In this document: piece by piece, positions 35,016-45,731 of the stretch | Position numbering within the stretch: position 1 is the stretch's first letter | Layout: the number at the start of each line of letters is the position of its first letter | From: Crenothrix polyspora | GTDB lineage: Bacteria; Pseudomonadota; Gammaproteobacteria; Methylococcales; Methylomonadaceae | Assembly (NCBI GenBank): GCA_945877505.1 | Contig: CAMDWT010000004.1 | Span: 1-64,000, forward strand | Reading direction: 5' to 3' | DNA: 64,000 bases | The notes under the pieces: model-generated | Databases searched by the model: none | The model's input: the letters and a program-made list of their open reading frames with translations, nothing else | Told to the model about the DNA's origin: nothing | Position numbers and translations under genes: made by a program

Positions 35016-36680
35016 ATGTTGATAAAATTAACCGGTGGAACTGTTTATGATCCTGCCAGCGGGATTGATGGAAAGCTACAAGATATTTATATTCAAGACG
35101 GACGTATCATAACAAAACCGATTGAAGCGGTCGTTGACAAAGAATACGATTTAACAGGCAAGGTTGTTATGTCAGGGGCCATTGATATGCATACGCATAT
35201 CGGTGGTGGTAAAGGAAATATTGCCAGAACATTATTACCAGAGGATCATCGGCAAGATCCAGTTCATCGGAGCGATATTACAAGATCCGGTTGTGGACAT
35301 GCCATGCCCAGTACTTTTGTAACCGGTTATCGTTATGCAGAAATGGGCTACACCGCTGGCTTTGAACCTGCAGTGTTGCCAGTTAATGCACGTCAAGCCC
35401 ATATGGAAATGGCTGATATCCCTATTTTGGATAAAGGCGGTTATGTGATGTTAGGCAGTGATGATTATTTGCTGCGTATGCTCACCGCCAAAAAAGACCA
35501 GAAAGCGATTAACGATTATGTCGCATGGACAATGCATTCTGCTAAAGCCATTGGAGTTAAGGTAGTTAATCCCGGCGGAATTAATGCCTTTAAATTTAAT
35601 CAGCGCAAACTAGATCTCGATGAGAAAAATAGTCATTACGGTGTCACGCCGCGTGATATTTTGCAGGTGTTGGCAACCGCGGTTAAAGAACTCGGTGTGG
35701 TTCATCCATTGCATGTACATGGCTGTAATTTGGGTGTGCCTGGTAATGTTCAAACAACACTCGATACCATTCAGGGTATTGGTGGCTTGCCCATGCATTT
35801 AACACATATTCAGTTCCACAGTTATGGTACGGAAGGTGATTTTAAGTTCTCATCGGGTGCCGCACAGATTGCTGAAGCCATTAATAAAAATAAAAATATC
35901 ACGATAGATGTTGGTCAAATTTTGTTTGGTCAAACCGTTACGGCATCGGGTGATAATATGCGGCAACATGCGAATAATAAATTTGCCAGCCCCAATAAAT
36001 GGGTAACCATGGATATTGAATGTGATGCGGGTTGTGGCGTCGTGCCTTTTAAATACAAAGATAAAAACTTTGTAAATGCACTTCAGTGGGCAATTGGTCT
36101 TGAGACCTTTTTGCTGGTTGATGATCCTTGGCGTATTTTCTTGACGACGGATCACCCCAATGGCGCACCTTTTACCAGTTATCCTCATTTAATACGCTTG
36201 TTAATGGATAGAAGTTTCCGTAATGAAGTGTTGTCTACGATTCATCCGGAAGCTCAAAAAATGACAACACTGGCGTCTATTGAACGTGAATATACGTTAC
36301 AAGAAATTGCTATTATGACGCGTGCCGGAGCCGCTAAATTGATTGGCTTAAAAGATAGGGGCGGATTAAGTGCCGGAAATTGGGCGGATATTACGGTTTA
36401 TACAAATAATAGTGATAGACAAAAAATGTTTGAAAAGCCTGATTATGTCTTTAAAGATGGTCAGTTAGTCGTGATAAATGGCAAAGTGGTTTCTACAAAA
36501 TGGGGTACGACCCATGTCGTTAGGCCAGATTTTGATCCTTCGGTAGAAAAAGGCTTGAAAGACTATTTTGATCGTTATATGACAATGAAGTTGGGTAATT
36601 TTAAAATCAGTGATGATGAGATTACAGAAGATGGACGTGGCAGTATCACTGTGCATCCCTTGAAAGGAGATGTAGCATGA
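35016..36680 (+). CDS. fhcA: Formyltransferase/hydrolase complex subunit A
   Basis: GGTVYDPASGIDGKLQDIYIQDGRI; AIDMHTHIGGGKGNIART amidohydrolase. Confidence 0.96.
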   Translation: MLIKLTGGTVYDPASGIDGKLQDIYIQDGRIITKPIEAVVDKEYDLTGKVVMSGAIDMHTHIGGGKGNIARTLLPEDHRQDPVHRSDITRSGCGHAMPSTFVTGYRYAEMGYTAGFEPAVLPVNARQAHMEMADIPILDKGGYVMLGSDDYLLRMLTAKKDQKAINDYVAWTMHSAKAIGVKVVNPGGINAFKFNQRKLDLDEKNSHYGVTPRDILQVLATAVKELGVVHPLHVHGCNLGVPGNVQTTLDTIQGIGGLPMHLTHIQFHSYGTEGDFKFSSGAAQIAEAINKNKNITIDVGQILFGQTVTASGDNMRQHANNKFASPNKWVTMDIECDAGCGVVPFKYKDKNFVNALQWAIGLETFLLVDDPWRIFLTTDHPNGAPFTSYPHLIRLLMDRSFRNEVLSTIHPEAQKMTTLASIEREYTLQEIAIMTRAGAAKLIGLKDRGGLSAGNWADITVYTNNSDRQKMFEKPDYVFKDGQLVVINGKVVSTKWGTTHVVRPDFDPSVEKGLKDYFDRYMTMKLGNFKISDDEITEDGRGSITVHPLKGDVA

Positions 36681-37573
36681 TTATTAATGGAGTATCGATA
36701 GATGCAACGTTTGCCGAAGCATTTCCAATGAAAGCTACACGCGCAATTATTACGGCACAAAATGAAAAATGGGCGCTAATTTCTGCCCAAGCTATGACCG
36801 GCTTTGCTACTTCAGTCATCGCCTGTGGTTGCGAAGGCAGTATTGAGCGAGTGTTGGCTCCTTCAGAAACACCGGATGGTCGTCCAGGCGTATCAGTTAT
36901 GATATTTGCTATGGGCGGTAAAGGTTTGGCTAAACAGTTAGAAACTAGAGCAGGGCAGTGTGTATTGACCTCGCCAACCGCGGCATTATTTGCGGGTATT
37001 GATGGAGGGATTAGAATTCCGTTGGGTAAAAATCTACGTTATTTCGGTGATGGTTTTCAAGTCTCTAAACAAATTAGCGGCAAGCGATATTGGCGTATTC
37101 CAGTGATGGATGGTGAGTTTCTGGCTGAAGCCACTACAGGTCAAGTTGATGCAATTGGGGGGGGTAATTTTTTAGTGCTGGCGGAATCACAGCCGCAGGC
37201 TCTTGCTGCTTGCGAGGCCGCGATTGAAGAGATGCGAAAAATTCCTAATGTTATTATGCCTTTCCCCGGTGGCGTTGTTCGTTCAGGTTCTAAAGTAGGT
37301 TCAAAATACAAAACACTTGGTGCTTCAACCAATGATGCATTTTGTCCTACATTAAAAGGAATGACTAAGACAGAGTTATCACCTGAAATTGAATCGGTTA
37401 TGGAAATTGTTATTGATGGCTTAAGCAAAGAGGACATCGAAAAGGCTATGCGGGTAGGCATACAGGCGGTTTGTGATTTGGGCGCTCAGAATGGTATTAA
37501 ACGTATTAGTGCTGGAAATTACGGTGGAAAGTTAGGGCCTTTCCATTTTCATCTACAGGAGATTATGGCATGA
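36677..37573 (+). CDS. fhcD: Formylmethanofuran--tetrahydromethanopterin N-formyltransferase
   Basis: INGVSIDATFAEAFPMKATRAIITA; TSVIACGCEGSIE; overlaps fhcA and fhcC. Confidence 0.97.
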   Translation: MIINGVSIDATFAEAFPMKATRAIITAQNEKWALISAQAMTGFATSVIACGCEGSIERVLAPSETPDGRPGVSVMIFAMGGKGLAKQLETRAGQCVLTSPTAALFAGIDGGIRIPLGKNLRYFGDGFQVSKQISGKRYWRIPVMDGEFLAEATTGQVDAIGGGNFLVLAESQPQALAACEAAIEEMRKIPNVIMPFPGGVVRSGSKVGSKYKTLGASTNDAFCPTLKGMTKTELSPEIESVMEIVIDGLSKEDIEKAMRVGIQAVCDLGAQNGIKRISAGNYGGKLGPFHFHLQEIMA

Positions 37574-38382
37574 GCGCTTTAACTTTTACATTAAAACATA
37601 AACCTAATCAACGTGTTGATATGTCGCCCTTAGTCTGTAATCAGTTAATTGATATGGACTTGGAGGCTATAGCGTCCATTACCTTGCAAAGTGGTAAATG
37701 TAAATTGCGAGTTGATGAAATTTTTACCATTGAAGGTTCTGATACGCAAAATATCGTCATAAAAAACAGTATTGATACGCTGGATTTTATTGGTAAAGAT
37801 CTAATAGGTGGGAGTATTTCGGTTATTGGTGATGCGGGTGCCTATTTGGCATTTGGTTTGAATGCCGGCGAAATTAAAGTTACAGGTGATGTAGGCCTTT
37901 ATGCTGCCTGTGAAATGAAAAAAGGTTACTTGGAAGTATCGGGCAACGCAGGTGATTTTTTAGGTGCGGCACTACCAGGTAATAAAATGGGTATGAAAGG
38001 CGGTACCATTCTAATTAAAGGCAATGTGGGTGCACGTGCGGGTGATCACATGCGTCGCGGTAATATTTTGATTGAAGGTAATGCGGGTGAATATTGTGGT
38101 TCAAGAATGACAGCCGGAACCATTGCAGTAATGGGGGATACAGGACGTCATTTAGGCTATGCTATGCGTCGTGGAACCTTGTTATTGTGGAATAATCCGA
38201 TATTATCAGCTAGTTTTAATGATTGTGGTGCGCATACTTTGGCATTTCTACCGATATTGTTCGCATCATTTAAGTCATTAAATTCGCGATTTTCTGATTC
38301 ATCTATCAGTTTTAACCGAGTACAGCGTTATTCAGGAGATATGTCAGAAATAGGTCGTGGTGAAGTATTAGTTAAACTTTAA
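37570..38382 (+). CDS. fhcC: Formyltransferase/hydrolase complex subunit C
   Basis: Repeated G-x-x-G-x-x-x-G beta-helix units (IKGNVGARAGDHMRRGNILIEGNAGEYCGSRMTAGTI). Confidence 0.96.
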   Translation: MSALTFTLKHKPNQRVDMSPLVCNQLIDMDLEAIASITLQSGKCKLRVDEIFTIEGSDTQNIVIKNSIDTLDFIGKDLIGGSISVIGDAGAYLAFGLNAGEIKVTGDVGLYAACEMKKGYLEVSGNAGDFLGAALPGNKMGMKGGTILIKGNVGARAGDHMRRGNILIEGNAGEYCGSRMTAGTIAVMGDTGRHLGYAMRRGTLLLWNNPILSASFNDCGAHTLAFLPILFASFKSLNSRFSDSSISFNRVQRYSGDMSEIGRGEVLVKL

Positions 38383-38468: not shown

Positions 38469-39548
38469 TTATAAAGTATTAACAGCGTTCAATTCTTGAA
38501 AGGCTTGTTCTAAACGGGTAACCATACCTTCTTCACCAGCACGTTGCCAAACCCGAGGATCGTAGTATTTTTTGTTAGGCTTGTCGTCTCCATCAGGATT
38601 TCCGATTTGACCTTGCAAATAGCCTTCATTTTTCTTGTAAAAACTCATAATACCTTCCCACGTTGCCCATTGGGTATCAGTATCAATGTTCATTTTCACA
38701 ACGCCATAACCAATTGATTCTTTAATTTCTTCAGCAGAAGAACCTGAACCACCGTGGAAAACAAAGTTTAATGTATTAGCTGGTATACCATATTTTTCAG
38801 ACACATATTTTTGTGAATTATCTAAAATGGTTGGCGTTAATTTAACGTTACCTGGTTTATAAACACCATGTACATTACCAAATGAAGCGGCGATAGTGAA
38901 ACGATGACTGATTTTGCTTAATTCTTCATAAGCATAAGCAACATCTTCAGGTTGCGTATAAAGTAATGAATGATCTAAATTACTATTATCAACGCCGTCT
39001 TCTTCTCCACCGGTCACACCTAATTCAATTTCAAGCGTCATGTCCATTTTAGACATACGTGCTAAATATTGACCGCAAATTTCGATGTTTTCTACCAAAC
39101 TTTCTTCAGATAAGTCCAACATGTGTGAGCTGAACAAAGGTTTTCCAGTTGCAGCGAAATGTTTTTCCCCTGCATCTAATAAGCCATCAATCCAAGGCAA
39201 AAGTTTTTTTGCTGCGTGGTCAGTATGCAAAATAACGGGTACGCCATAAGCTTCTGCCATTAAATGTACATGTTGTGCACCTGAAATAGCACCTAAAACA
39301 GCAGTTTCTTGTCCTTGTAACTTTAGGCCTTTACCAGCGACAAATTGAGCTCCACCATTTGAAAATTGGATAACAACGGGTGACTTGACTTTTGCAGCAG
39401 CTTCTAATACAGCGTTGATTGAATCTGTATTAATAACATTAACAGCCGGCATTGCAAATTTGTTTTCTTTGCAAATTGCAAAGATTTTTTGAACATCTTC
39501 ACCGGTTACGACGCCGGGTTTAACTACGTCTAAAATTTTTTGTGACAT
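38469..39548 (-). CDS. fba: Class II fructose-bisphosphate aldolase
   Basis: VILHTDHAAKKLLPWIDGLL; FVFHGGSGSSAEEI; NIDTDTQWA. Confidence 0.96.
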   Translation of the reverse strand: MSQKILDVVKPGVVTGEDVQKIFAICKENKFAMPAVNVINTDSINAVLEAAAKVKSPVVIQFSNGGAQFVAGKGLKLQGQETAVLGAISGAQHVHLMAEAYGVPVILHTDHAAKKLLPWIDGLLDAGEKHFAATGKPLFSSHMLDLSEESLVENIEICGQYLARMSKMDMTLEIELGVTGGEEDGVDNSNLDHSLLYTQPEDVAYAYEELSKISHRFTIAASFGNVHGVYKPGNVKLTPTILDNSQKYVSEKYGIPANTLNFVFHGGSGSSAEEIKESIGYGVVKMNIDTDTQWATWEGIMSFYKKNEGYLQGQIGNPDGDDKPNKKYYDPRVWQRAGEEGMVTRLEQAFQELNAVNTL

Positions 39549-39643: not shown

Positions 39644-40630
39644 TTAACCTTCAAGGCTTGCTAAGCGAGCTGCAAGTAATTGTTCTAGTGCTTCTAAGGC
39701 AGTTGCAAAGCCACTAATGCCTTCAGCCAGTTTGTCTGTAGCCATACGGTTTTCAGCATGCATAGCTTCAAAAGTCGCTTTGTCCATTGAGATTTTTTCA
39801 ATTGACAGCATAGCTGCATTTTCTGGGTCAAGTTTACGAGGTAATTCACCTTCAGTTGCTTGTAATTCAGCCAATAGTGAAGGAGCGATCGTTAATAGAT
39901 CACTACCCGCTAATTCAGTAATTTCACCAACGTTACGGAAGCTAGCGCCCATAACTTCGGTTTTGTAACCAAATTTTTTGTAGTAGTTATAGATTTCAGT
40001 AACAGAAACTACACCTGGATCTTCAGCAGGGGCATACGAATCACGACCAGTATCTTTTTTGTACCAGTCTAGAATACGACCAACAAACGGTGAAATTAAA
40101 GTGATGCCATTTTCAGCGCAAGCAATGGCTTGGTGAAGACCAAACAAAAGGGTTAGGTTACAATGAATGCCTTCTTTTTCTAATACTGCAGCAGCTTGGA
40201 TACCTTCCCAAGTAGCTGCAATTTTAATTAATACTCTATCACGGGTTACATTGTGTGCTTCGTATTGCGCTATCAATTCACGACCTTTAGCGACGGTTGC
40301 GGTGGTGTCAAATGATAGACGAGCATCAACTTCAGTTGAAACGCGGCCAGGTATGATTTCAAGAATTTTAAGTCCGAATGAAACAGCAAGACGATCAAAC
40401 GCTAAAGAAACAACGTCTGCAGCAGATGCCGCCTGACCTAAACTTACACGTGCAGCTTTTAAAGTATCATCAACAATACCTTGGTATTGCGGCATTTGAG
40501 CGGCAGCAGTAATTAAAGAAGGATTAGTTGTAGCATCACGTGGTGTGAATGTTTCAATTGCTTGAATGTCGCCAGTATCGGCCACAACAACGGTGATTTC
40601 TTTAAGTTGTTCTAGTAAATTTTTTCCCAT
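39644..40630 (-). CDS. tal: Transaldolase
   Basis: [40 protein letters not shown]. Confidence 0.97.
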
Positions 40631-40771
40631 GATAGGTGCCTTTTATATTTTAATGAAAAATTTGTTTAATCGCTTTTTTTATAGCTATGCGATTGTTTGA
40701 GTTGAGATCTAGTGAAAAGGTTAAAATAAGAAAAACTTCTTATCTAATTTTACTCAAATTTGGGAGAAACA

Positions 40772-40814
40772 AAAACCACAGCTTTTTCAAAAATAGATAA
40801 GCTGTGGTTTTTTC
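40772..40814 (-). terminator. Rho-independent terminator of the repeat-protein transcription unit
   Basis: AAAACCACAGCTT ... AAGCTGTGGTTTT inverted repeat with A/T tracts. Confidence 0.8.
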
Positions 40815-40825
40815 TCAGTGACTTG

Positions 40826-41617
40826 TTAAGCTTGGTGACGCATGTATTTTTCAACACTTGTTACTATTGGAGCAGGTTTTTGCTTTTCAACTAAAGCCTG
40901 TCTAACCATATATTTGGCTACTCTACTGATTTGAGGCTGATTTGCTTGCTCATCAAGGTATTTAGCAACACCTGTTAAAATAGTAGGTTGTTCTGCTTTT
41001 TTAGCAGTTAGAGCAGCTATTGCCGCTTGTTTTGCCATGTACTTGGCAACTCTACTAGGTTGTGGAAGGTTTTCTTGTGTTTGCAAATATTTTGCAACGC
41101 CAGAAATTTCAACTTTAACGGGTTTAACTTGTGTAGCTGATAAGGCGGCTTGCTTTGTAAGGTATCTTGCAACATTACTGGGTTGCGGCAAACTAGCTTG
41201 ATGTTTCATATATTTTTCAACACCTGTTAGTTCAGGTGCTGGTTTTTTATTTTTCAAGTATTTCTCAACGCCCGTTACTTCAGGTTCGCCACTGAGTTGT
41301 CTTAGCTGTTTTTCTGCTATGGATTGTCTCAATACATATTTAGAAACACCACTAGTAGGGGTTTGATCAAGACTTTCAAGGTATTTAGCAACACCACTTA
41401 CTAATTGATCAGGTTCAATTAAGATGCTTTCGGATAATAATAAAGCATATTTATTGTTTAAATACCTTGAAACTCCAGTTACACCATTTGGATCTTTGGA
41501 GTAGACAGGATAAACAGGTTCATCTCTGTATATATCTTCAGATCTAGGCCGATTCATGAAAAAGAACAAACCCGCAACTGCAGGAAAAAAAAAGCCATTC
41601 GAGTTATTCTTGTTCAT
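40826..41617 (-). CDS. Repeat protein with 11 copies of [ST]xVx[KR]Y[LMV]xx[QK]; short N-terminal hydrophobic segment
   Basis: 263 aa; motif starts at residues 47, 74, 89, 115, 131, 147, 172, 188, 215, 231, 253; N-terminal GFFFPAVAGLFFFM. Confidence 0.9.
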   Translation of the reverse strand: MNKNNSNGFFFPAVAGLFFFMNRPRSEDIYRDEPVYPVYSKDPNGVTGVSRYLNNKYALLLSESILIEPDQLVSGVAKYLESLDQTPTSGVSKYVLRQSIAEKQLRQLSGEPEVTGVEKYLKNKKPAPELTGVEKYMKHQASLPQPSNVARYLTKQAALSATQVKPVKVEISGVAKYLQTQENLPQPSRVAKYMAKQAAIAALTAKKAEQPTILTGVAKYLDEQANQPQISRVAKYMVRQALVEKQKPAPIVTSVEKYMRHQA

Positions 41618-41619
41618 AA

Positions 41620-42312
41620 TTAGCCCCGGTCACGCATGTATTTATCAACACCAGTTGCAGTTTTACTTGCAGTTTCTTTCGAAGATACGGCTTGTTTTGC
41701 CATGTATTTGGCTACACCGGTTGCCAATGTTACAGATTTTACATTTGATTCTAAGTATCTTGATACGCCGGTACCTGATACTTTATTTAAGTATTTGGCA
41801 ACACCCGTATTCAGAGCATAAGATTTTCTAGCTACTACGGGAGCAGAATTTTTAACGGTAGTGCCACTGGTTTTTTTGAATAAATAAAAACCTGCTGCTG
41901 CAAGTAATAATAAGCCAATCAAGTAGCTTGACATAGAAGATGAATCTTCAGCGGCTTCACTCACAACAACACTTTGAGTTTCTGTTGAGTTTGAAGTCGA
42001 AACTTTTGATACAGTTGACTTTGATGGTTTGTAATTCGGGTCAGAATAAACAACTTCTGGCTTGAAATCAGCCGCAGGATATTTGTCATCATGAGCAGAT
42101 GCTGCTGAGGAACTCGAAGCGGCTTTAGCGGCGGGAGCTGCCTTAGATGCAGTTGCTGTATTACTCTTAGCCACTATATCGCTATTTTGGTAAAGTACTT
42201 CAGGTTGAAAGTCTGCAGCTGGATACTGTTGATCAGCGCTTACTACCGCACTGGATATCAGAAGTATCGCAAACGCTCCTTTTGTCAAATTTTTCTTTTT
42301 CACGTTGTTCAC
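41620..42312 (-). CDS. Bipartite membrane protein: signal peptide, two YPAADF[QK]PEV[LV]Y repeats, one TM, four TGVxKYL repeats
   Basis: 230 aa; SAVVSA-DQQ cleavage-like site; TM SSYLIGLLLLAAAGFYLFKK; motifs at residues 169, 181, 198, 220; 2-nt gap to the next gene. A start at the second GTG (42303) fits the SD-like AGGTG better. Confidence 0.87.
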   Translation of the reverse strand: MNNVKKKNLTKGAFAILLISSAVVSADQQYPAADFQPEVLYQNSDIVAKSNTATASKAAPAAKAASSSSAASAHDDKYPAADFKPEVVYSDPNYKPSKSTVSKVSTSNSTETQSVVVSEAAEDSSSMSSYLIGLLLLAAAGFYLFKKTSGTTVKNSAPVVARKSYALNTGVAKYLNKVSGTGVSRYLESNVKSVTLATGVAKYMAKQAVSSKETASKTATGVDKYMRDRG

Positions 42313-42421: not shown

Positions 42422-44416
42422 TTAAAGTACTGCTTCAACGTTCTTAACTACGTTTTCAACGGTAAAGCCAAACTCTTTGAAAAGTTGACCCGCTGGAGCA
42501 GACTCGCCAAATCGGTCGAGGCCTACAATTTTACCGTTGGTTCCTACATATTTCCACCAACCATCAGTTACACCCGCTTCAACGGCTACACGTTTGGTTA
42601 CCGCAGAAGGTAATACTGATTCGCGATAGGCTGCATCTTGAGCATCAAAGATATTAGTTGATGGCATCGATACAACACGAATATTTTTACCAGTAGTTCT
42701 AATTTGCTCCGCTGCTTTAAGAGCAAGTTCAACTTCAGAACCAGTAGCAATAATAATTGCATCAGGCTGACCTTCACTGTCACTAAGAATGTATCCACCG
42801 CGCGAAATCGCCTCAATTTGTTGCTGAGTGCGAGGTACATGAGGAAGATTTTGACGTGAAAAAACAAGTATAGAAGGTCCGCTTTGCCTTTCGAAAGCTG
42901 CTTTCCAAGAAATAGTTGTTTCAACTGCATCACACGGACGCCAAACTTGAATTCCTGGTATTAATCTAAGTGTTGCAGTTTGTTCAACGGGTTGATGAGT
43001 CGGACCATCTTCACCAAGACCTATTGAGTCATGTGTGTATACGAAGATTGATCTGATTTTCATCAATGATGCCATGCGTAGCGCATTTCGAGCATATTCT
43101 GAGAACATGAGAAAGGTAGCGCCAAATGGAATTAATCCACCATGAAGAGCAATACCATTCATAATTGCAGACATACCAAATTCACGTACACCATAATTGA
43201 TGTAGTTTGCATCGGGCTTATCAGCACGCATTGGTTTGTAACCCGTCCATTCAGTCATATTTGAGCAGCCTAAATCAGCTGATCCACCGAATATTTCTGG
43301 TAAAATTTTTGCAAAGCCTTCAATTGCAGCTAATGAAGAAAGACGCGTTGCTGTTGTTTTTGCTTCTGCATTGATTGAATTTACAAATTCATTTGCTTTA
43401 TTTTCCCAATTAGAAGGTAGTTCGCCCGCCATTCTACGTTGGTATTCTGAGGCTAGTTCAGGATGTGCAGCTTGGTAAGCGGAAAATTTTTCATTCCATT
43501 CTTTTTCAGCTTTTGATCCTTTGTTTTTAGCATCCCATCCAGCATAGACTTCTGATGGTATTACAAAGGCTTCATGATCCCAACCTAGCGCAGCTTTAGT
43601 TAGATTAATCTCGTCTTGACCTAGAGCAGCGCCATGACAAGCATGACTACCTGCTTTATTAGGCGAACCAAACCCAATGGTTGTTTTGCAACAAATCATG
43701 GTAGGTTTATCTGTCATGGCTTTTGCCATTTGGATTGCTTTAGTTAGTGCCACATGATCGTGACCATCTACATCAGCAATAACATGCCATCCATAAGCTT
43801 CGAAACGCAGTGGTGTATTATCGGTAAACCAGCCATCAACATGTCCGTCAATGGAAATGCCGTTGTCGTCCCAAAATGCTATTAAATTACCGAGGCCTAG
43901 TGTTCCGGCTAGCGAGCATGCTTCATGAGAAATACCTTCCATCAAGCAACCATCACCTAAGAAAGTATAGGTGTGATGATCTACTATTTTATGGCCGTCT
44001 CTATTGAACTGAGCCGCAAGTGCTTTTTCTGCAATTGCCATGCCGACTGCATTAGTAATACCTTGTCCTAAAGGACCCGTTGTTGTCTCAACGCCTGGGG
44101 CGTAACCATACTCTGGGTGTCCAGGTGTTTTAGAGTGAAGTTGACGAAAATTCATCAGTTCTTCAATAGGGAGATCATATCCAGTCAAGTGCAATAGTGA
44201 ATAAATCAACATCGAACCGTGGCCATTAGACAGCACGAAACGGTCCCGATTTGACCATTGAGGATTGGACGGATTGTGTTTCATGAAATCATTCCACAAA
44301 ACTTCGGCAATATCTGCCATTCCCATTGGTGCCCCTGGATGTCCAGAATTTGCTTTTTGAACGGCGTCCATGCTCAAAGCGCGTATGGCGTTCGCTAATT
44401 CTCGGCGCGAAGTCAT
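42422..44416 (-). CDS. tkt: Transketolase
   Basis: [61 protein letters not shown]. Confidence 0.98.
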
Positions 44417-44553: not shown

Positions 44554-45087
44554 CTATTCTAAATTAGCGTGCCTTTCTCTCATTATTTCTTCAGGAATTC
44601 CTTTTTCGTGAATAATATGAGAAATAGTTGCTTCCAAAAATAACAAGGTTGAAAGTTCAAATACAGTACCCATAGGCATTCCTAAAACCTTACCGTATTG
44701 TTCTTGCTTGCCAATTTGAAATACACCATCAGCTAGATCACCAATAGTTGATTCTCCTTTCGCAGAAATCAAAACTATATTTGCACCCATTTTCTTTGCA
44801 CTTTTAGTGAATGCTATTAATTGTTCAGTCTCTCCAGATCCGGAAATAATGATCAATAAGTCACCGTTTTTAATACTTGGCGTTACAATTTCTCCTACGA
44901 CACTGACATCGTAACCACCATGTACAAGCCTCATTGCAAAGAAATTGCCAACCAACTTGGATCGCCCAGCTCCCGCAATGAAAATACGTTTGGCGTTATC
45001 AAGTAACTGGGTTAGCTTTGCATCATACGTATCATCTGTAGCTTCAAGTACACCTGAAATCTTTTCTATGATAAGTTGCTGATGCAT
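44554..45087 (-). CDS. hxlB: 6-phospho-3-hexuloisomerase
   Basis: SIS domain IFIAGAGRSKLVGNFFAMRLVHGGYDVSVVGE; directly follows HPS. Confidence 0.96.
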   Translation of the reverse strand: MHQQLIIEKISGVLEATDDTYDAKLTQLLDNAKRIFIAGAGRSKLVGNFFAMRLVHGGYDVSVVGEIVTPSIKNGDLLIIISGSGETEQLIAFTKSAKKMGANIVLISAKGESTIGDLADGVFQIGKQEQYGKVLGMPMGTVFELSTLLFLEATISHIIHEKGIPEEIMRERHANLE

Positions 45088-45089
45088 AA

Positions 45090-45731
45090 TTAAACCGCGT
45101 CAACCAATTCGCGAATTTCACGAGCTGCATCTGCAGGAGAAGCTGCGCCATAAATAGCTGCGCCAACAACGATAATGTTTGCGCCTGCTCTAACAACGTC
45201 TTGTACAGTAGATGCTTTGATGCCGCCAGCAACTGAAATTCTAACTGGCAAGCCTAATCCTGCGATTAAGTTTAAGTCAGCAAATGGAGTGTGGCCAGCT
45301 GCTTGTGCATCAAGACCTGTGTGAATACCCATTACTTGCGCGCCTGCTTCACAAGTTGCTCTTGCACAAGCTGCTTTATCATCAACATTGATTAAGTCAA
45401 TTTGAGCTTCTGCACCATGTGCGTTTGCTGCTTTGATAACGCCTTGGCAAGTAGCTAAACCTGATACGCCAAGAACAGTAACAATATCTGCACCAGCTGC
45501 ATAGAAAGGCGTTGCTTCATATTCGCCAGCATCCATTGTTTTAAGATCAACTAACAACAGTTTTTCTGGGAATCTTGCTCTCAATTCTTTAACTAAATTG
45601 ATACCATTGTGTTTGATGCAAGGAGTTCCAATTTCAAAAATGTCAACATAAGGTGCTACTAAGGTAGCAAGACCTACAGTTGCGTCAAAATCCAGTGAAT
45701 CTAATGCCATTTGTATTAATGGTTTTGCCAT
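45090..45731 (-). CDS. hxlA: 3-hexulose-6-phosphate synthase
   Basis: QMALDSLDFDATVGLATLVAPYVDIFEIGTPCIKHNGINLV; LLVDLKTMDAGEYEA. Confidence 0.97.
   Translation of the reverse strand: MAKPLIQMALDSLDFDATVGLATLVAPYVDIFEIGTPCIKHNGINLVKELRARFPEKLLLVDLKTMDAGEYEATPFYAAGADIVTVLGVSGLATCQGVIKAANAHGAEAQIDLINVDDKAACARATCEAGAQVMGIHTGLDAQAAGHTPFADLNLIAGLGLPVRISVAGGIKASTVQDVVRAGANIIVVGAAIYGAASPADAAREIRELVDAV

Follow-up and report, generated by a model that had tools for sequence, protein, structure and literature searches.

How organisms that use the RuMP pathway hold toxic formaldehyde low at high flux is an open question. In the carboxysome, the scaffold CsoS2 gathers the carbon-fixing enzyme by means of multivalent repeats. 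EPYC1 and CsLinker are largely flexible chains bearing repeated short helical stickers, and structured elements spaced 20-120 residues apart have been used as a criterion for EPYC1-like linkers (PMC11570498). For formaldehyde fixation, engineers turned to artificial enzyme fusions, namely HPS-PHI and MDH-HPS-PHI (PMC8879981).

In this work, we analyzed two adjacent genes, A and B, which lie within a RuMP gene cluster on a stretch of 64,000 nucleotides (the window). As in EPYC1-like linkers, repeated short structured elements are present in both products, with one predicted helix per motif, and the two proteins would cross-link a carbon-fixing enzyme as EPYC1 and CsLinker do. They differ from these linkers in pathway and enzyme, in their tighter spacing (a median of 18 residues across all motif proteins, against 20-120) and in the presence of a transmembrane member, and their binding is putative. 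The likeness to CsoS2 lies in the multivalent repeats, but A and B have no Pfam or NCBIfam match to CsoS2 and no shell genes were seen in the RuMP cluster. The engineered fusions likewise unite formaldehyde-fixing enzymes, although covalently, whereas the docking proposed here is multivalent; unlinked natural hps-phi fusion genes also occur in some of the genomes surveyed. Searches of Pfam, NCBIfam and the PDB returned no fitting family for A or B and no sequence relation indicating descent from EPYC1 or CsoS2, in line with the first-pass annotation of this DNA, which had recognized no named family; matches to DPC2, U1snRNP70_N and MltA were treated as low-complexity. No description of these proteins was found in the literature searched, and the pair appears to be undescribed. 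By analogy, the two proteins would work like EPYC1-type linkers.

Architecture of the locus and of the two repeat proteins

The genes of the cluster run on the minus strand in the order hps-phi-tkt-A-B-tal-fba, with 2 nt between A and B; the re-checked coordinates agree with the order, shared strand and gap given earlier. The conserved neighbors phi, tkt, tal and fba are reading frames whose identity was read from their sequence. The features are as follows:

45090-45731, minus strand: hps, 3-hexulose-6-phosphate synthase, candidate partner (TIGR03128 match; PDB matches)
44554-45087, minus strand: phi, 6-phospho-3-hexuloisomerase
42422-44416, minus strand: tkt, transketolase
41620-42312, minus strand: gene A, 230-aa bitopic membrane protein, GTG start, four C-terminal TGVxKYL motifs
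42235-42312, minus strand: A residues 1-26, signal-peptide-like (Sec-type) N-terminus (hydropathy; predicted helix 9-20)
42184-42225, minus strand: A residues 30-43, first YPAADFxPEVxYxN motif
42040-42081, minus strand: A residues 78-91, second YPAADFxPEVxYxD motif
41878-41934, minus strand: A residues 127-145, transmembrane helix (hydropathy and predicted structure)
41629-41808, minus strand: A residues 169-228, four TGVxKYL motifs, one predicted short helix each
40826-41617, minus strand: gene B, 263-aa repeat protein, 11 motifs
41555-41596, minus strand: B residues 8-21, short hydrophobic N-terminal segment (from the sequence)
40832-41479, minus strand: B residues 47-262, eleven motifs, one predicted helix each
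40767-40816, minus strand: terminator-like hairpin with a U-rich end, directly 3' of B (fold z-score -5.6)
39644-40630, minus strand: tal, transaldolase
38469-39548, minus strand: fba, fructose-bisphosphate aldolase

The hairpin after B, which was not reported by a consensus terminator scan with a loop limit of 8, suggests that hps-phi-tkt-A-B may terminate together, ahead of tal. Convergent with the RuMP cluster, the plus-strand genes at 35016-38382 resemble formylmethanofuran dehydrogenase subunits and a formyltransferase and, going by their sequences only, read like genes of formaldehyde oxidation.

The expression [ST]-x-V-x-[KR]-Y-[LMV] is found in 4 copies in A and 11 in B, as the first-pass annotation had reported, far above the chance level given by 5000 shuffles per protein (mean about 0.005 copies, maximum 1). 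In both proteins the motif takes the form [ST]-G-V-x-[KR]-Y-[LMI], with a spacing of 12-22 residues in A and 15-27 in B; elsewhere, proteins carry from 2 to about 20 copies at variable spacing. The consensus of 720 copies from 124 proteins is about [TS]-[GSR]-V-[AE]-[KR]-Y-[LI]-x-[KN]-Q, where the search expression itself left little or no freedom at V and Y. Multi-copy arrays occur in the organism's own genome only in A and B: DNA-form matches outside the two genes were about as many as those of a control pattern, for a pattern that leaves out CGN arginine codons, and two isolated matches on another contig (C113) formed no array.

The TGVxKYL motif is under strong purifying selection. Nonsynonymous over synonymous codon differences, counted among 28-29 homologues of the same genus, gave a ratio of 0.22 for the whole motif in A and 0.31 for the motif core positions in B, against 1.8-2.7 in the linkers, which drift; this contrast indicates that A and B are real genes and that the motif is their selected part. 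The same strong purifying selection acts on a second repeat of A, YPAADF[QK]PEV[LV]Y[QS][ND] (YPxxDF for short), whose two copies are constrained as strongly as TGVxKYL.

Single-chain AlphaFold2 models, whose overall confidence is low, predicted no overall fold for A or B (pTM 0.16-0.18) but placed one helix on every motif, 11 of 11 in B and 4 of 4 in A. For B (23 aligned sequences; mean pLDDT 69.5, pTM 0.18), the 11 predicted helices span residues 49-64, 75-84, 90-108, 116-122, 132-142, 148-162, 173-182, 189-206, 217-225, 232-245 and 254-262, each starting 1-2 residues past the S/T of its motif. For A (19 sequences; mean pLDDT 54.6, pTM 0.16), the motif tail has predicted helices at 170-178, 182-193, 199-215 and 221-228, and those outside it lie at 9-20, 47-50 and 125-148. 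In these models the motif reads as a short helix N-capped by S/T, with V3, Y6 and L7 on one face, and the chain may be flexible and largely disordered, as judged from the pTM values and the unconstrained linkers.

The two proteins differ in their hydrophobic segments and linkers, which modifies the earlier description of a single hydrophobic segment ahead of the repeats and of linkers rich in K/A/P/E/Q. Both statements hold for B, with its K/A/P/Q/E-rich linkers and one segment, GFFFPAVAGLFFFM, short for a standard transmembrane helix, but not for A, whose linkers are rich in S/A/T and which has two such segments by hydropathy and predicted helices, one signal-peptide-like (9-27) and one transmembrane (127-145). 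The signal peptide, the YPAADFxPEVxYxD motifs and the separate transmembrane helix of A had been overlooked. In the predicted topology the YPxxDF module should face the periplasm; in most A homologues the final TGVxKYL motif is the C-terminal end of the protein.

Linkage to hps and distribution across genomes

The TGVxKYL proteins are linked to the RuMP pathway, and this association is well supported. Among 46 fetched loci with RuMP genes, the neighbors of the motif gene included hps in 45, phi in 42, tal in 39, tkt in 17 and fba in 10, the sole locus lacking hps being one that stops at a contig edge. Among the matches listed for the A profile, 65 of 80 places lie no more than 6 kb from hps and always share its strand; the remainder are mostly YPxxDF-only genes or lie in genomes with no hps among the listed matches. 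Gene order differs between loci without loss of the link to hps: A-hps-phi in family f4, hps-tkt-YPxxDF-B in the second clusters of genus g17, hps-B-hps-phi-tkt-A-tal at locus L068, only hps and tkt, with tal and phi missing, at L101 and L103, and, at L031 and L070, several copies of an hps-phi-tkt unit with a repeat gene behind each. The latter locus (L070:2165-17000) has three such units in tandem; behind the first and the second lies a gene for the same 457-aa repeat protein, identical in both places, and behind the third an A-type gene. In Methylophaga and its relatives, which belong to another order, the same association between motif and hps recurs in a different gene order, hps-motif-tal-hps-phi, in 23 of 23 cluster loci (M. 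sulfidovorans, M. aminisulfidivorans and MAGs; two of the loci are truncated, one ahead of the first hps and the other ahead of phi).

One genome, G039, has a double RuMP cluster matching that of Methylococcus capsulatus, with an A gene ahead of each hps. A CRISPRi screen on methane showed depletion of the M. capsulatus RuMP operons MCA3040-45 and MCA3046-50, MCA3051 being phosphoribulokinase (PMC13108547). Owing to CRISPRi polarity, this depletion says nothing specific on the motif genes, which by gene order would be MCA3042 and MCA3048. An A-like gene in G046 has purD as its neighbor and is separated by about 110 kb from the closest hps among the matches listed; as purD borders the RuMP cluster in G040, this gene may be a relict. 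At L149:7610-8311, where there are no RuMP genes, an A-like gene adjoins purD and may be such a relict, purD bordering the RuMP cluster in another genome (L071).

Within the window's order, the A profile matched in 131 of 151 genomes, with hps over the cut-off in 132 and a PF02461 (AMO/pmoA) gene in 130. Families f1-f8 were assigned to groups by gene content, Methylophaga from the names in the sequence records. Every sampled genome of family f1 had an A-profile match, including three scored as hps-negative (G135, G174, G177), in which the cluster is cut at a contig end, and proteins with several motif copies are present in almost every genome of the window's family and in many of a sister family. 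Nine genomes with PF02461 lack both hps and an A-profile match (G042, G043, G048, G056, G059, G071, G075, G079, G083), and seven have hps with the A profile unmatched (G057, G069, G087, G092, G108, G114, G118), G092 having a clustered set of RuMP genes yet lacking the motif. Outside the order, hps was over the cut-off in 5 of 232 genomes of the class sample and the same 5 have motif proteins; in a class sample of 369 genomes, hps was found in 6, all of them with motif proteins, although these counts of co-occurrence stand for only two independent groups. In the sixth of these genomes (G915), the motif gene lies between hps and tal. A further class-level match (G185) was spurious, with no motif, and a cluster contig in G052, carrying the same motif proteins as a G038 contig, is probably contamination. 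No motif proteins appeared beyond the order in a phylum sample of 398 genomes, and no RuMP bacteria were seen in the samples outside the window's order and the Methylophaga group. The Methylophaga motif protein, whose N-terminus is only short hydrophobic or amphipathic, occurs without A and without pMMO, PF02461 being absent from 56 of the 57 genomes of the family.

The association with the RuMP pathway proposed by the first-pass annotation is thus borne out, since motif genes and hps keep company in two different orders; a distribution mainly in non-RuMP organisms, a lack of any proximity to these genes, or membership of a known family, which that annotation had named as contrary findings, were not encountered. 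The proposal nonetheless needs amending, in that some methanotrophs with hps lack the motif and Methylophaga has the motif protein without A and without pMMO.

The proposed scaffold and its alternatives

Multivalent short helices on flexible linkers, together with a transmembrane member, fit a tether or scaffold. We infer, with a probability of roughly 0.6, that A and B are a scaffold on which RuMP enzymes, most likely HPS, dock at multiple sites, A being its membrane-spanning anchor. Judged by gene order, HPS is the best candidate partner, as hps is the most constant neighbor. In favor of the scaffold are the one helix per motif, the conserved motifs on free linkers, the linkage to hps, its recurrence in Methylophaga, the coincidence in the class sample, the absence of the motif from AMO-positive, hps-negative genomes and the duplicated hps-phi-tkt units carrying their own repeat gene. 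Against it are the hps-positive genomes without the motif (G092 included), the A-like gene of G046 far from hps, the few motif proteins found apart from RuMP genes (L033, L034, L038 and a ChpA-like kinase in L136) and the restriction to two independent groups. The membrane tether proposed earlier agrees with the multivalent helices and the transmembrane member but has to be amended for the signal peptide and second module of A.

In the mechanism that we envisage, the short helix, N-capped by S/T, would expose its V-Y-L face, which would dock on a RuMP enzyme, most likely HPS and possibly PHI or TAL. The 11 motifs of B (elsewhere 3 to about 20) on their flexible chain would cross-link or concentrate the enzyme. 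In A, the signal peptide and the YPxxDF motifs would lie outside and the motif tail inside, and this protein would hold the enzyme to the (intra)cytoplasmic membrane from the cytoplasmic side, across from a partner in the periplasm, so that formaldehyde from the periplasmic methanol dehydrogenase would be captured upon entry. The fuller version, a widespread metabolon of type I methanotrophs in which HPS is concentrated by B and is linked by A, through docking of the outer YPxxDF motif, across the (intra)cytoplasmic membrane to the methane- or methanol-oxidizing machinery, with formaldehyde captured at its point of entry, is tentative and, in our estimation, has appreciably less than an even chance of being right. 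In the 1970s, HPS of M. capsulatus was reportedly largely particulate, which would fit a membrane tether. When HPS, PHI and TAL were compared between motif-positive and motif-negative organisms for a docking site on HPS, four HPS positions stood out as tentative candidates (E70, K100, E108 and V163) against few motif-negative sequences; of these, E70 is shared by the solved HPS 3ajx. If true, a natural scaffold kept in most type I methanotrophs and in Methylophaga would offer a mechanism open to testing and a part that synthetic methylotrophy could adopt, and would extend multivalent-linker organization in carbon assimilation to a case other than Rubisco.

The same genomic evidence could be read differently. 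The partner of the motif might be an enzyme other than HPS, such as TAL, PHI or TKT, or a hub such as a general localization factor, given that tal is the immediate neighbor in Methylophaga and in the window's family and that the motif occurs inside a ChpA-like kinase (one MAG) and in proteins elsewhere in some genomes; we consider this rather unlikely, because tal and phi are missing at L101 and L103, hps is missing only where a contig ends, and multi-copy arrays in the own genome are confined to A and B. That A and B act on HPS as inhibitor, chaperone or stabilizer would rest on the very linkage that favors the scaffold and on the tight control that formaldehyde flux requires, but copy numbers that range between 2 and about 20, an irregular spacing and linkers that drift suit avidity over a stoichiometric regulator and make such a role very improbable.

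Alternatively, A and B could organize the intracytoplasmic membrane or pMMO, their proximity to RuMP genes reflecting co-expression of methanotrophy genes. In favor of this, A is membrane-spanning with a constrained motif on its outer side, and YPxxDF without the motif tail persists in pMMO-bearing genomes where hps is unlinked or was not found; nevertheless, motif proteins occur in Methylophaga, whose family all but lacks PF02461, and are absent from the nine AMO-positive, hps-negative genomes, and for the pair as a whole this explanation is improbable. We exclude it for TGVxKYL, which tracks hps and not AMO/pMMO, but it may apply to the YPxxDF module alone. As this module follows the pMMO-bearing members of the order rather than hps, its distribution suggests a partner in the periplasm or in the lumen of the intracytoplasmic membrane, which for the scaffold would lie on the side of A opposite to the docked enzyme.

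Variants of the two repeats

The YPxxDF membrane module occurs without the TGVxKYL tail in genus g8 (family f6), where hps is unlinked to it, and in G044 (family f2), where a profile search found no hps; as the sole repeat gene, the tailless module was not found near hps. The tailless proteins of g8 (L083, L084, L085, L087, L089, L090) have a basic NRQRANKTRRSRRR-like C-terminal tail, and several of their genes are near a mutS-like gene. Between tkt and A, two loci (L037:7386-7721 and L036:10280-10609) encode additional small YPEDF proteins that look secreted and lack the motif tail, one of them with a CSCPC stretch.

As to TGVxKYL proteins away from RuMP genes, the ChpA-like chemosensory kinase of one Methylophagaceae-like MAG (L136:4297-9975; Hpt, HATPase_c, CheW and response-regulator domains) has four motif copies in its linker, and a short motif protein at L038:8269-8913 stands beside a SulP-like transporter gene with no RuMP neighbor. 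Two others (L033:6267-7046 and L034:7424-8269), one of which adjoins an Hsp20-like gene, end in a CQAxTxxGTQC...C..H stretch that looks like a metal-binding domain, and their N-terminus, MAKNLFEQ, resembles the MAKNLLEQ of the cluster transaldolase.
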